Of a stretch of DNA of 64,000 bases, positions 4,582 through 64,000 are shown one piece after another (within the stretch, counting starts at the first letter, position 1; the number at the start of each line of letters is the position of its first letter). Where the stretch lies: contig NZ_FZNN01000001.1 in NCBI RefSeq assembly GCF_900188035.1, positions 496,001 through 560,000 on the forward strand, in the 5' to 3' direction. Made by a program: the position numbers and the translations under genes. The notes below the pieces were generated by a model. It was not told the origin of the DNA and did not search any database. It worked only from the letters and a program-made list of their open reading frames with translations. This DNA comes from Puniceibacterium sediminis. GTDB taxonomy: Bacteria; Pseudomonadota; Alphaproteobacteria; Rhodobacterales; Rhodobacteraceae.

Positions 4582-5169
4582 ATGTTTACTGGAATAATCA
4601 CCGACATTGGCGAAGTGCGCGAGTTGGAACAGCGCGGGGATTTGCGGGCGCGGATCGTGACCGGGTATGACACCCAGACCATTGATATCGGCGCGTCGAT
4701 TGCGTGCAACGGGGTCTGCCTGACAGTGGTGGCGCTGGGGTCGGACTGGTTTGATGTGGAAATCAGCGCAGAAACCGTGAGCAAAACGAATTTGGCCTCT
4801 TGGTCAGTGGGTTATCGCGTGAACCTTGAGCGTGCCCTTAAGGTTGGGGACGAGCTGGGCGGGCATATCGTTTCTGGCCATGTGGACGGTCAGGCCGAGG
4901 TGATTTCCGTGCAGGATGAAGGGGATAGCACCCGAGTCGTGCTGCGCGCACCCAAGGCGCTGGCGCGGTTCATCGCATCGAAAGGTTCGGTGGCTTTGAA
5001 CGGCACGTCGCTGACAGTGAACGAGGTTTCGGGCTGTGATTTCGGCATCAATTTCATTCCACACACCAAGGTCGCGACGACCTGGGGGGATGTGCAGGAA
5101 GGTGACCGGGTGAACCTTGAGATCGACACGCTGGCGCGTTACGTCGCCCGGCTGGCCGAGATGTCCTGA
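4582..5169 (+). CDS. ribE: Riboflavin synthase, alpha subunit
   Basis: Joins two molecules of 6,7-dimethyl-8-ribityllumazine to give riboflavin. The 195-residue protein is two tandem lumazine-binding barrels: the first opens with MFTGIITDIGEV and contains the CNGVCLTV loop, the second starts near GGHIVSGHVDGQAEV and repeats the pattern with LNGTSLTVNEV. It lies downstream of nrdR-ribD on the same strand. The gap before it contains a purine-rich AAAAAGGGACG close to the start codon. A CGTATGG heptamer array begins 24 bp after the stop. Confidence 0.96.
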   Translation: MFTGIITDIGEVRELEQRGDLRARIVTGYDTQTIDIGASIACNGVCLTVVALGSDWFDVEISAETVSKTNLASWSVGYRVNLERALKVGDELGGHIVSGHVDGQAEVISVQDEGDSTRVVLRAPKALARFIASKGSVALNGTSLTVNEVSGCDFGINFIPHTKVATTWGDVQEGDRVNLEIDTLARYVARLAEMS

Positions 5170-5193
5170 GGCCCGAAAGCACCCAGAAAACGG

Positions 5194-5245
5194 CGTATGG
5201 CAGGCGTATGGAAAGCGTATGGTTTTCGTATGGCTGCCTGTATGG
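5194..5245 (+). repeat. CGTATGG heptamer array, copy 1 (11-bp phased)
   Basis: CGTATGG occurs at 5194, 5205, 5216 and 5227, exactly 11 bp apart, followed by a fifth variant TGTATGG at 5239. The 33-bp block at 5204-5236 is identical, in inverted orientation, to 63778-63810 near the other end of the window. It lies in the gap between convergent ribE and the MFS gene. Nothing in the flanks suggests a transposase. Confidence 0.85.
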
Positions 5246-5257
5246 CCCGGGGCCGGG

Positions 5258-6418
5258 TCATCGTGTCCGGGCGGCGGCCGTCATCAGATGCAGAGCCAGC
5301 CCCAGCAGATAGCAGATCAGCACCACGGCCAAACCGCCTGAGGGGCCGAAGGCCGCGAGCATGGTCAGCAGGATCGGAGTCCCGATCAGATTGCCAAGGT
5401 TGCCCATCTGCGCCACCGCGCCGTTGGCCAGCGCGCGGTCCTGGGCTGTGGCGTTCAGCTGCGGGATCGCGGCAAAGCTGGCCGCCTGCACCAGCGCCAG
5501 AGTCCCGAACAACCCGACCACCGGCCAGATCGCCCCGGGCAGCGCCCAGACCAGAGCGACGGCGAGGGCGGAGAGCGTGAAGCCCGCCATCACGATCCGC
5601 ACGGCCGGCATCACCCGCAGCAGCGCCACGACCAGAGTGAGAGATACCGCAATCGAGGTCAGCGGCAAAACGCCAAGCAGCCAGCCCGGTGCATCCGGGC
5701 CCAGCACCAGCGGCAGCACGGTCAGCAGGGCCACGAAGGTCAGCGTGTAGCAGAGCCAGCCGAGCGCGACGGCGCTGATCGCCGGGTTGCGGTAGATCTC
5801 GCCGTGGCGGCGCAGCAGATCGCCGGGGGACAGGCGGGTCTTGCCGGTGGCGAGTTCGAGCCGCGGCAGGGTCAACCACAGGACCCCGGCCATCAGCGCC
5901 ATGTACCCCGCGTGCAGTGCGAACAGCGCGCCCGGTCCGAAGGTGTCGATCAGCGGCAGACCACCCCAGGCGGCAAGGGCGTAGGCGACGCCGAAAAACG
6001 TGCTCCAGAGGGTCATGGCAAAGGGGCGCAGCCGGTCCGGGGCGAGTTCGGCGATAAAGGTCGGCGCGGCGACGACGATGACCAGATGCGACAGGCCCTC
6101 AACCAGCCGCGATGCGAGCAGGACGGGAAAGCTGGGCAATGTGGCCTGAAGCGCGGACATCAGCGCCCCGAGGATCAGCCCGGCGAGCAGGAGTTTGCGA
6201 TAGCCCAGCCGCGCGACGATCATGCCGGCCACAAGCCCGAGGATCAGGCCGACAAAGCTGAGCAGGGAGAGGGCGAAGCCGAGGCTGGCACCGGCCTCGG
6301 GGTAGGCGAGTTGCAGGGCGGGAAAGGAGACCGAGACCTTGGCGAACTGACCGGCTGCACCAAGGCCCGCCGCCCAGAGCAGCAGGATCATGGCAAGGGG
6401 CGGAAGGGGGCGGATCAT
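5258..6418 (-). CDS. MFS transporter
   Basis: A 386-residue, strongly hydrophobic protein with about twelve membrane segments and a short central cytoplasmic loop (LPRLELATGKTRLSPGDLLR), the standard 6+6 major facilitator layout. The motif A region between helices 2 and 3 is seen as GMIVARLGYRKLLL. There is no signal of a particular substrate; the family includes sugar, drug and metabolite exporters. It is a single gene with its own flanks: the heptamer array at its 3' end and a large imperfect inverted repeat upstream. Confidence 0.85.
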   Translation of the reverse strand: MIRPLPPLAMILLLWAAGLGAAGQFAKVSVSFPALQLAYPEAGASLGFALSLLSFVGLILGLVAGMIVARLGYRKLLLAGLILGALMSALQATLPSFPVLLASRLVEGLSHLVIVVAAPTFIAELAPDRLRPFAMTLWSTFFGVAYALAAWGGLPLIDTFGPGALFALHAGYMALMAGVLWLTLPRLELATGKTRLSPGDLLRRHGEIYRNPAISAVALGWLCYTLTFVALLTVLPLVLGPDAPGWLLGVLPLTSIAVSLTLVVALLRVMPAVRIVMAGFTLSALAVALVWALPGAIWPVVGLFGTLALVQAASFAAIPQLNATAQDRALANGAVAQMGNLGNLIGTPILLTMLAAFGPSGGLAVVLICYLLGLALHLMTAAARTR

Positions 6419-60606: not shown

Positions 60607-60945
60607 ATGTCCGTCGCAGACCTTGATCCACTGTTTCCCCGTCGTAGCCGCCCCGGCTTGTTGCATCGCCTGTCAGGTTGGGCGCGTCGGCGCCGCAACC
60701 GTCGCCGGCTGGAATTGTTGCGCCAGGATCCGCATCTGGCGGCGGACATCGGCCTGCTGCAAAGACCGCTACGTTCTGCGGCGCCATCGACGGCGCCGCA
60801 CTGGTGCTTCAATTTGCCCGCAGCTGAAGCACCGTGGCCACAGCAGCAAGGATATCCAGGCGTTGAACAGGCTTCATCAGCCGGATGTCCTCTGGCCTCA
60901 ACCCATTGCCATGCACCATGGCTTCGGTGGCATATCCCGACATGA
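60607..60945 (+). CDS. DUF1127 small basic protein, SoxR-box controlled, with antisense C-terminal extension
   Basis: A 112-residue protein. Residues 22-50 are a DUF1127 core: arginine-rich WARRRRNRRRLELL followed by DPHLAADIGL. Such proteins are usually 45-75 residues; some in Rhodobacterales bind RNA and are linked to oxidative stress. From about residue 68 the frame runs antisense through the last 137 bp of the convergent histidine kinase gene and looks non-conserved (PWPQQQ, SAGCPLAS). AAGGAG stands six bases before the ATG. The SoxR box upstream suggests induction by redox-active compounds. Confidence 0.7.
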   Translation: MSVADLDPLFPRRSRPGLLHRLSGWARRRRNRRRLELLRQDPHLAADIGLLQRPLRSAAPSTAPHWCFNLPAAEAPWPQQQGYPGVEQASSAGCPLASTHCHAPWLRWHIPT

Positions 60946-63358
60946 AGACGACCGGTAAATCCGACCGTATCTGCCTGAGCGCCTTTGCCAGATGGGTTCC
61001 CTGCAATTTGCCCGGCATGACGATATCTGTCAGCAACAGATCGAATGTCGGATCTGCGTTGAAGACCGCAAAGGCCTTGTCCCCCGAGGAGGTCGCCGTC
61101 ACCACATAGCCCGCACGTTCAAGAATGGTCACCAGGGTCTTGCGAACGGCATCTTCATCTTCGGCGACCAGCACCCTTTGCCCGCGACCTGCAATCTCGC
61201 CTTCCGCGAATGTCGGACTGACGGATTCTTCCTTGCTGCCCTCCGCCGCAGGGAAAAACAGCTTGAACGTCGTGCCTTCACCGACTTCGGTATAGACTTG
61301 GACCGTTCCACCGGATTGCTTCATAAACCCTAGGATCATCGACAGCCCAAGCCCGGAGCCCGACCCCGGGGGTTTGGTCGTGAAAAACGGCTCGAAGATC
61401 GAGGCGCGATCGTCTTGCGCGATACCCTCTCCGGTGTCGCTGACGGCAAGCATGACATAGCGGCCCGGTGCCAGTGCCTCCTGGCGAGAGTCGACATAGC
61501 CTTGGTCGATGCGAAGATTGGCCGTCTCGATCGTCAGGTTGCCTTGCCCCGCCATGGCGTCGCGTGCGTTCAGGATAAGGTTCAGCAGCGCACTTTCCAA
61601 TGAGCTGCGGTCGACTGCGACGGGCCACAATTCGGGAACAAGAGATGTTCTTATCGAAATGCTTTCCGGCAGGGTGCGCCCCATCCAGGTCTTGGCGTCG
61701 CGCAACACATTATTGAGATCAAGAACCTCTGGCGTCAGCCGCGCCTTGCGCGCAAAGGACAACAAGTTCTTTGTCAGATCGGCCCCACGCAGCGCGGCGG
61801 TGATCGCCGCATTCCTCAGCACGTTCTGCGTCGCGGGATCGTTTTCATCGGCCAGCAATTCCAGATTGCCCAGGATCACCGCCAGCAGGTTGTTGAAGTC
61901 ATGCGCGACCCCGCCAGTCAGCAGCCCGATGCTTTCGCTTTTCTGCGCACGATAGGAAATCTCGCGCTCTTTCTCGACCTGCGCCATCACGTCGACTTCA
62001 TGGGTCACATCCAGAACGATGGACTCGATCAGCACGCAGCAGTCTTTGATGGTCGAGGCCCCGTGATAGTCCAGCCATCGGATCGTGCCGTCACGCGCCG
62101 TGATCCGATAGCGGTGCGAAACAGGCGTGCGGCTATCAATCCCGTTTGCGACCAGTGCATTGAAAAGATCAATGTCCGAAGGGTCGTGTGCCCGCATGAG
62201 CGCGTCGGAGTCCGCATAGATTTCCGCGTCCGTATAGCCCCAGATGTCCTGACATTTCGGGCTGATGTATAACAACTTCGGATTTTTCCGGTCGGTCATA
62301 TCAGACTGGAACATGACCCCCGGCAGATTCTCCGCGATCACTGCCAGACGATTAATCGTTTCCAATTGCCTTTGCTCGGCCTCGCGGATGTCTGTCAGGT
62401 CTGATTGTACGCCGAACACCCGGGTCGGCTTGCCGTCAGTGCCGCCTTCGCCAACCCAATACGCCCGGGCATAGCGCAGCGTTCCGTCCGGCCTGACCAC
62501 CCGGAAATCAACCCGGTCCCGCTCGCGCTCACCAGTATCAGATTTTTGAAATTCCGCTTGCAGACGGGGCAGGTCGTCGGGATGGATCAGCGTAGCCCAG
62601 GTAGACATCGGCACAAGTCCCGGTTCTCGATCCAGCCCATAAGCTGCCATCATGCCGGCGTCAAAATAAACGTCGGTATCGTCCACATTGCGCTCAAACA
62701 TTCCCATGCCGGAATGCTGCAATGAAAGATCCAGCCGCCTCGAAAGCTCAGCTGACCGCGCAGCCTCGGATGCGAATTTGGCCGCATAGATCAGGATTTG
62801 CCAGGTGATCAGGATGGATGTCGCGCCAACCGCGATGAACACCAGGGCAGACATTGCCGCAATCCTGTATCCATTGCCGGTTGGGATCGTTGGCCCGACA
62901 ATCACTATCGGCACCAGGAACAGCGCAGCAAACCCGCACAGCAGGTACCCTATGGCAAAGCGGGGTATGACCGGCCAGTCAGTGGGGGGGCGCAAATACC
63001 CAATGATTAGCCCGACCGTGGGAATGGCCAGACCCATGAACACTCCCACAATCGGGACCGGGCCGCTGTTGAACGAAACCATGAACGCAGCACAGGCACC
63101 GGCGATCAATGCGCCAATCGGCCCGCCAAGGTATCCGGCAAAGATGAGCGGCCCCGCGTTGGCATCAATTGGCACTTTCCGCGGCTCAAGCAGGTATGAA
63201 TCCAAGCTGAGCGCAATCACCAGGATACCGAAAACCACTCCCATCAACGTTTGTTGCAGTCGCTTCCGGCCCCTCAGATGTCCGGAAACAAAGATCGCGT
63301 AACAAAAAACTCCCGCAAGAAGAAGTGCCGTCAAACTTTGAAAAATTGATATGAACAT
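60809..63358 (-). CDS. Hybrid sensor histidine kinase (5TM-LYT type N-terminus, PAS, kinase, receiver)
   Basis: An 849-residue hybrid kinase. N-terminal membrane sensor of five to six helices in LytS/5TMR-LYT style (DANAGPLIFAGYLGGPIGAL), two PAS domains (about 205-325 and 335-455), the H-box GGVAHDFNNLLAVILGNLEL with His486, ATPase motifs NLILNARDAMAG and SDTGEGIAQDD, and a C-terminal receiver with D778 (LLLTDIVMP). The receiver may feed a phosphorelay; no response regulator with an output domain is adjacent. CAGGAG precedes the ATG at 63358. Signal unknown. Confidence 0.92.
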   Translation of the reverse strand: MFISIFQSLTALLLAGVFCYAIFVSGHLRGRKRLQQTLMGVVFGILVIALSLDSYLLEPRKVPIDANAGPLIFAGYLGGPIGALIAGACAAFMVSFNSGPVPIVGVFMGLAIPTVGLIIGYLRPPTDWPVIPRFAIGYLLCGFAALFLVPIVIVGPTIPTGNGYRIAAMSALVFIAVGATSILITWQILIYAAKFASEAARSAELSRRLDLSLQHSGMGMFERNVDDTDVYFDAGMMAAYGLDREPGLVPMSTWATLIHPDDLPRLQAEFQKSDTGERERDRVDFRVVRPDGTLRYARAYWVGEGGTDGKPTRVFGVQSDLTDIREAEQRQLETINRLAVIAENLPGVMFQSDMTDRKNPKLLYISPKCQDIWGYTDAEIYADSDALMRAHDPSDIDLFNALVANGIDSRTPVSHRYRITARDGTIRWLDYHGASTIKDCCVLIESIVLDVTHEVDVMAQVEKEREISYRAQKSESIGLLTGGVAHDFNNLLAVILGNLELLADENDPATQNVLRNAAITAALRGADLTKNLLSFARKARLTPEVLDLNNVLRDAKTWMGRTLPESISIRTSLVPELWPVAVDRSSLESALLNLILNARDAMAGQGNLTIETANLRIDQGYVDSRQEALAPGRYVMLAVSDTGEGIAQDDRASIFEPFFTTKPPGSGSGLGLSMILGFMKQSGGTVQVYTEVGEGTTFKLFFPAAEGSKEESVSPTFAEGEIAGRGQRVLVAEDEDAVRKTLVTILERAGYVVTATSSGDKAFAVFNADPTFDLLLTDIVMPGKLQGTHLAKALRQIRSDLPVVFMSGYATEAMVHGNGLRPEDIRLMKPVQRLDILAAVATVLQLRAN

Positions 63359-64000
<642 letters not shown>

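Follow-up and report, generated by a model that had tools for sequence, protein, structure and literature searches.

Spaced CGTATGG heptamer arrays dispersed along the chromosomes of some Rhodobacterales

The heptamer CGTATGG, repeated head to tail at 11-bp steps with 4-bp spacers, forms genuine arrays that are maintained and that occur in some, though not all, Rhodobacterales, in marine bacteria. In the genome of Puniceibacterium sediminis, the arrays number in the tens, lie mostly between genes and keep a long distance from one another. Protein binding on one face of the DNA is the best reading of this pattern, and we estimate a probability of about 0.5 that the arrays are cooperative binding sites of a putative protein marking or structuring the chromosome at intervals. 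Literature searches of open PubMed Central papers gave no description of such arrays among the papers listed.

Array anatomy and gene context in Puniceibacterium sediminis

The window, that is, the whole 64,000-nt stretch analysed from the P. sediminis genome (G000; 4.64 Mb, 69 contigs), holds two arrays. Their parts and the neighbours of array 1 are as follows.

4582 to 5169, + strand: ribE, riboflavin synthase, upstream neighbour of array 1 (NF006767, 237.9 bits)
5186 to 5193, + strand: 5′ flank of array 1, GAAAACGG, no general part of the element
5194 to 5233, + strand: array 1, four exact CGTATGG heptamers (5194, 5205, 5216, 5227) with spacers CAGG, AAAG and TTTT
5234 to 5245, + strand: 3′ end of array 1, CTG and then the weak unit TGTATGG (5239-5245) at a 12-bp step
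5258 to 6418, − strand: MFS-type transporter, convergent neighbour of array 1 (MFS models, all under their curated cut-offs)
63769 to 63780, − strand: 3′ end of array 2, CTGGC and then the weak unit GGTATGG (63769-63775)
63781 to 63820, − strand: array 2, four exact heptamers (63814, 63803, 63792, 63781) with spacers CTTG, AAAG and TTTT

Array 1 starts 24 bp past the ribE stop codon, and array 2 is antisense to tgt, 39 bp from the predicted start of that gene, most of which lies beyond the window. An earlier, sequence-only reading had placed four plus-strand heptamers and a variant unit at 5239 in array 1, and all five are present; array 2 carries the minus-strand counterpart at 63781, 63792, 63803 and 63814. 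Of the spacers that it gave, AAAG and TTTT are correct, and the first, GCAG, should read CAGG (5201-5204). The match that it described between blocks 58.5 kb apart is exact: all 33 bp of 5204-5236 recur in reverse complement at 63778-63810, and the identity stops at both ends. This identity is nothing special: of the 161 pairs of neighbouring spacers in 60 arrays of this genome, five are AAAG and then TTTT. It reflects a small spacer vocabulary and conserved heptamers, not recent copying of a 33-bp unit, which was rejected because spacers vary among copies and AAAG-TTTT is a common pair. The motif GAAAAC was likewise rejected as a general 5′ signature, since only 10 of the 60 arrays have it in the 25 bp upstream. 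Single heptamers were mildly enriched in the window (11 versus 5.06 expected; 3 of 100 shuffles reached 11). A hybrid histidine kinase with a receiver domain is encoded at 60809-63382 (− strand), and it resembles CckA models at scores below their cut-offs.

Genome-wide, three heptamers in register with up to three mismatches gave 175 matches, compared to none for the reversed control; four in register gave 112 (control 0) and two in register 243 (control 25). Three in-register heptamers are not a product of chance. From the matches listed, at least 60 separate arrays were collected and each was inspected with its surroundings. Five units were present in 37 of the 60, four units in 21 and six units in two. 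The inner units are mainly CGTATGG, and the outer units are weaker forms such as CATATGG, GATATGG, GGTATGG and CGTCTGG. In 33 of the 60 arrays the final spacer reads CTGG, CTGC or CTCG, and CTG immediately follows the last exact heptamer in 37. Heptamer positions hold 1.6-2.0 bits of information each and spacer positions 0.06-0.83 bits, with A or T at the second spacer base in 98% of units. The spacers are often AAAS or TTTN, one per helical turn. Adjacent spacers are rarely identical (z −3.9 in P. sediminis and −3.0 in P. antarcticum) and AAA alternates with TTT, possibly through selection against slippage-prone exact tandem repeats.

Placement relative to genes was assessed with genes predicted by an ad hoc codon model, on which all the following counts rest. 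Five of the 60 arrays overlap predicted genes, two of which are well scored (L204, L219), so the family is mostly intergenic (55 of 60 outside predicted genes), as the sequence-only reading had proposed from its two copies. The 56 gaps that hold arrays comprised 35 codirectional, 12 convergent and 9 divergent ones, and the 157 other gaps 95, 22 and 40, respectively, with no significant difference between the two sets (Fisher P 0.21 for convergent and 0.20 for divergent gaps). In the codirectional gaps, 22 arrays were antisense and 13 sense. All 13 sense arrays lie within 52 bp past a stop codon, and the antisense arrays precede start codons by a median of 70 bp, 17 of the 22 at 20-130 bp, so that some could touch promoters. 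Nine proteins from array neighbours and the window were scanned, including those of ribE, tgt, yajC, ttcA and scpB, a cold-shock protein and an ABC ATPase, and their functions were unrelated. Several array positions are conserved together with the downstream gene, as before yajC and ttcA. One array common to both species lies next to scpB, a gene for a condensin partner, at 2 bp from its predicted start in P. sediminis and 13 bp in P. antarcticum (L186, L136).

Conservation and distribution in the Rhodobacterales

In the congener P. antarcticum (G001), at least 55 arrays were listed and 40 of these were fetched. In position and orientation, 34 of the 40 matched 34 different P. sediminis arrays, one of them assigned by its flanks only. 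Between these orthologous arrays, 86 of 1067 heptamer letters differed (8.1%, a figure lowered because the P. antarcticum arrays were found by their heptamers), compared to 162 of 494 spacer letters (32.8%) and 697 of 3311 letters in the 60-bp flanks, coding sequence included (21.1%). The last G of the heptamer differed in none of 153 cases. Had heptamers diverged like the flanks, a five-unit array would be findable with a probability of 0.106, giving about 6 of 60, whereas at least 34 of 60 were observed (P ~1e-18), indicating that heptamers and positions are maintained. Retention is thus far above the neutral expectation after allowing for how the arrays were found, and the arrays are kept by selection. 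The suggestion that the repeat is copied as a unit is not supported by these data: spacers vary from copy to copy, and in orthologous copies they differ more than the flanks, with the heptamers differing least.

Within the family, a CGTATGG triple with at most one mismatch was found in 15 of 394 genomes with no control match listed, and a wider SRTMTGG triple without mismatch in 14 of 198, with control matches in G132 (one) and G159 (four); the G159 match resembles a plain tandem repeat. Most sampled family genomes gave no pattern match, and such genomes may hold dialects unseen by these patterns. Matches listed came from Puniceibacterium, Pseudooctadecabacter, Marinosulfonomonas, Pararhodobacter, Maritimibacter, Amylibacter, Roseivivax and Xinfangfangia, among others; the cultured species Pseudooctadecabacter jejudonensis is one carrier. 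The scan of this genome and of other Rhodobacterales that the sequence-only reading had proposed therefore gave far more than two copies, with arrays in relatives too, and a chance duplication fails as an explanation because the family far exceeds two copies and occurs in other Rhodobacterales. Some sites are common to different genera, for example after the same ABC ATPase gene (Marinosulfonomonas record L111).

The heptamer dialect differs between genomes. G202 uses CGTCTGG and CGTATGG, ending CATCCGTCCCGACAG; G157 uses SATATGG, and G132 and G330 use GGTATGG. Spacers in G202 and G101 are often CATG, CACG or CAGG, with no A-tract. Three congeners of P. sediminis (G002, G003, G004) gave no pattern match, and the array was absent from all three at one orthologous site. 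A motif-free 11-bp scan, which recovered 59 of 60 P. sediminis loci as a positive check, returned only one low-complexity match in 400 kb of the G002 chromosome. As the arrays are missing from close relatives, they are not essential to the family.

Matches elsewhere appeared to be of other kinds. Five IMG/VR viral contigs (L155, L156, L157, L160, L161) carry the same CGTATGG-CAGA-CGTATGG-CAAA-CGTATGG stretch, their 40-bp flanks are identical too, and L159 is similar; this is probably a different, phage-borne repeat. Exact matches in L089, L106 and L110, labelled Gemmatimonadetes, Balneolales and delta proteobacterium, resemble plain 11-bp tandem repeats with a near-single spacer rather than this heptamer array element.

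Spacing and position along the chromosome

Arrays were mapped in six genomes (G000, G202, G172, G077, G330 and G101), with 222 arrays listed in all and 14 to 60 listed per genome. Among the arrays listed, none of the 191 intervals between neighbours on the same contig was shorter than 11.5 kb, the shortest being 11,627, 11,932 and 12,326 bp; these statistics include some contigs whose length was assumed, and looser patterns that carry background. Uniform placement would give 25.8 intervals below 11.5 kb, and the minimum across 20,000 simulations was 11. Intervals of 30-80 kb were over-represented (93 versus 59.5 expected, arrays listed). The deficit of short intervals was significant in G000, G202, G172 and G330 taken singly (P <0.0001 to 0.0045) and not significant in G077 and G101, where few were expected. 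A relaxed seed revealed no second array within about 3.5 kb of the P. sediminis arrays (60 arrays, 60 loci).

Matches to the mapping patterns, compared to reversed controls, were 111 versus 20 in G202, 39 versus 4 in G077, 84 versus 1 in G172, 39 versus 0 in G101 and 56 versus 28 in G330. The high control count in G330 probably comes from the arrays themselves, because GGTATGG reads the same when reversed. Chance matches would make short intervals more numerous, not fewer. The minimum distance could arise from selection against redundancy, from physical domain size or from spread with immunity.

Tens of arrays were found on chromosomes (at least 60 in G000 and at least 47 in G202), as for chromosome-organising sites, which lie on the chromosome and not on plasmids. 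Eleven repC contigs (one from G000, eight from G001 and two from G077; 575 kb in total) held no array among those listed, compared to 5.0 expected at chromosomal density (P 0.007), a deficit that rests on these five expected arrays and on G001 matches listed only at 0-1 mismatch. A search of a plasmid collection with array 1, weak for varying spacers, gave no array-like match.

In G202, parAB and two parS sites lie at 404-409 kb and a KOPS-like strand switch at 2.51-2.56 Mb. No consistent ori-ter bias of the MatP, Noc or SlmA type emerged, the arrays being biased toward the origin in G077 (P 0.007) and not in G202 (P 0.22). The ter-proximal fifth held none of the 14 arrays listed in G077 (2.8 expected) and 4 of the 47 listed in G202 (9.4 expected); terminus exclusion as a general feature was ruled out by G330, which has a run of arrays opposite its parS. 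Fourteen of the 15 arrays nearest the origin point toward it in G202 (scan P 0.002) and 12 of 14 point away from it in G330, each with one orientation per replichore, while orientation near the origin is mixed in G172. Replication-oriented sites were accordingly rejected as a rule, and with opposite or mixed orientations and differing axis positions there is no replication-linked rule.

Possible functions and known systems

One-face protein binding is preferred because the heptamers are conserved and the 7+4-bp geometry fits a known class of operators. The arrays show what cooperative binding of this kind predicts: a constant pitch of 11 bp, heptamers running head to tail, spacers free to vary and weaker units at the ends. 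We infer a putative protein with a PhoB/OmpR-like binding mode and a chromosomal function. Such a sequence-specific protein would place one subunit on each heptamer, head to tail along a single DNA face, and its cooperativity would set the 11-bp step. With arrays at least 11.6 kb apart, an excess of 30-80 kb intervals and a mostly intergenic location, the sites may be anchor points for chromosome or nucleoid organisation, with roles in marking domains, condensation, tethering or the control of division, and not ordinary promoter operators. The exclusion zone, the restriction of the listed arrays to the chromosome and gap types without significant promoter bias argue for a structural or marking role over an ordinary regulon. 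A more specific and tentative proposal is that the arrays represent a new class of clade-specific chromosome-spacing element, in which a protein that can be gained or lost lays out the chromosome with an enforced minimum of about 11.6 kb. Such an element could delimit physical domains or provide membrane anchors, with a recognition word that would have drifted into dialects between genera.

The closest geometry is that of PhoB/OmpR operators, with direct repeats of about 7 bp, a 4-bp spacer, an 11-bp pitch and a head-to-tail oligomer (PMC4832192); the arrays share the repeat length, spacer and pitch. For Mycobacterium tuberculosis PhoP, a member of the OmpR/PhoB family, that paper reports recognition of direct repeats of 7 bp with strict 4-bp spacing, loss of affinity when the spacer is changed, and tighter binding to three or four consecutive motifs than to two (PMC4832192). 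Because of the shared 7+4-bp geometry, a PhoP-type binder is the first candidate, by analogy only. CenR of Rhodobacter sphaeroides was ruled out as the binder, since it recognises a different motif, TGA-N8-TGA (PMC9275681). Known PhoB/OmpR operators lie at promoters, whereas the arrays occupy gap types close to background and avoid one another over 11.5 kb.

Sets of tens of short protein-binding sites across a chromosome are also formed by matS/MatP and SBS/SlmA in Escherichia coli and NBS/Noc in Bacillus subtilis, which are single palindromic sites confined to or excluded from ter. The arrays, for which binding is predicted, resemble them in number and spread, and differ in being direct repeats without consistent ori-ter bias. 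The heptamer tandem repeats of cyanobacteria (STRR) are short and intergenic as well, but unspaced, whereas the arrays have a strict 4-bp spacer and conserved heptamers. REP/BIME elements are dispersed, intergenic and short, occur in clade-specific dialects and often lie past stop codons, and the arrays are like them in all these respects. They differ in having no palindrome, fixed heptamers with varying spacers, a long exclusion distance and fewer copies.

Several other explanations were weighed against this chromosome-site reading. The arrays might be operators of a global transcription factor of PhoB/OmpR or similar type, with a regulon of about 60 units and some sites acting from downstream. 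The 7+4-bp direct-repeat geometry would suit such a factor, as would the 17 of 22 antisense arrays at 20-130 bp before start codons and the positions conserved with yajC and ttcA. We nevertheless consider it unlikely, since every sense array in a codirectional gap follows closely on a stop codon, convergent gaps are not avoided (12 of 56 versus 22 of 157), the nine scanned proteins have unrelated functions and an exclusion zone of 11.5 kb is not expected of a regulon. Alternatively, the arrays could be a mobile element, REP/BIME-like or other, dispersed through the chromosome and spaced by target immunity, which extends over tens of kilobases in some transposons. The sporadic distribution (15 of 394 and 14 of 198 family genomes) and the absence from three congeners at one orthologous site and from the 400-kb sample of one of them agree with mobility; however, the arrays are direct repeats and not the imperfect palindromes of REP/BIME, copies have heptamers and not spacers in common, and the conserved heptamers and the 34 of 40 positions shared with P. 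antarcticum are unlike decaying insertions, making this explanation rather improbable.

At the RNA level, a hairpin in 3′ untranslated regions, acting as a terminator, stability element or sRNA target, was considered. CGUAUG is self-complementary with G·U pairs, sense arrays lie just past stop codons, and the CGTATGG strand folds better than shuffles (mean z −2.31 in 60 P. sediminis arrays and −2.46 in 40 P. antarcticum arrays) while the opposite strand hardly folds (z −0.17 and −0.32, respectively). Yet nine G202 arrays of the CGTCTGG dialect show no folding (mean z +0.45), arrays lie in both orientations to genes with antisense commoner than sense, only 7 of 60 arrays have the T run of an intrinsic terminator (at least four T within 25 nt on the 3′ side), and no Rfam model matched at the arrays, a scan of the window at gathering thresholds returning one tRNA only. 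Complementarity between adjacent spacers exceeds that of position-wise shuffles (z above 4 in both species) but reduces to the AAA/TTT alternation, the only triplets that contribute, without register-specific pairing; a hairpin from complementary spacers was rejected for this reason and for the missing folding in the G202 dialect. An RNA function thus seems very unlikely. Phased A-tract curvature, with spacers bending the DNA and heptamers incidental, deserves hardly any credence: it would account for the A- and T-rich spacers of P. sediminis at every helical turn, but it fails because the spacers, not the heptamers, are the variable part, and G202 and G101 spacers lack A-tracts. Recent duplication, an RNA hairpin and a REP-like element all fit worse than the chromosome-site reading.

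The arrays, a cis element with a strong distance rule, bear on what determines the size of bacterial chromosome domains. Since they occur in several genera and are missing from close relatives, they lend themselves to comparison between species and to single-array deletion or insertion. Their dialects also form a natural series in which recognition by one probable binder varies. In four records (L064, L079, L144 and L148, the first two from Marinosulfonomonas), the arrays have TTAACAAGGG on one flank and GTTAAC, GTTAAT or ATTAAC on the other, flanks that we take to be reminiscent of CtrA boxes.
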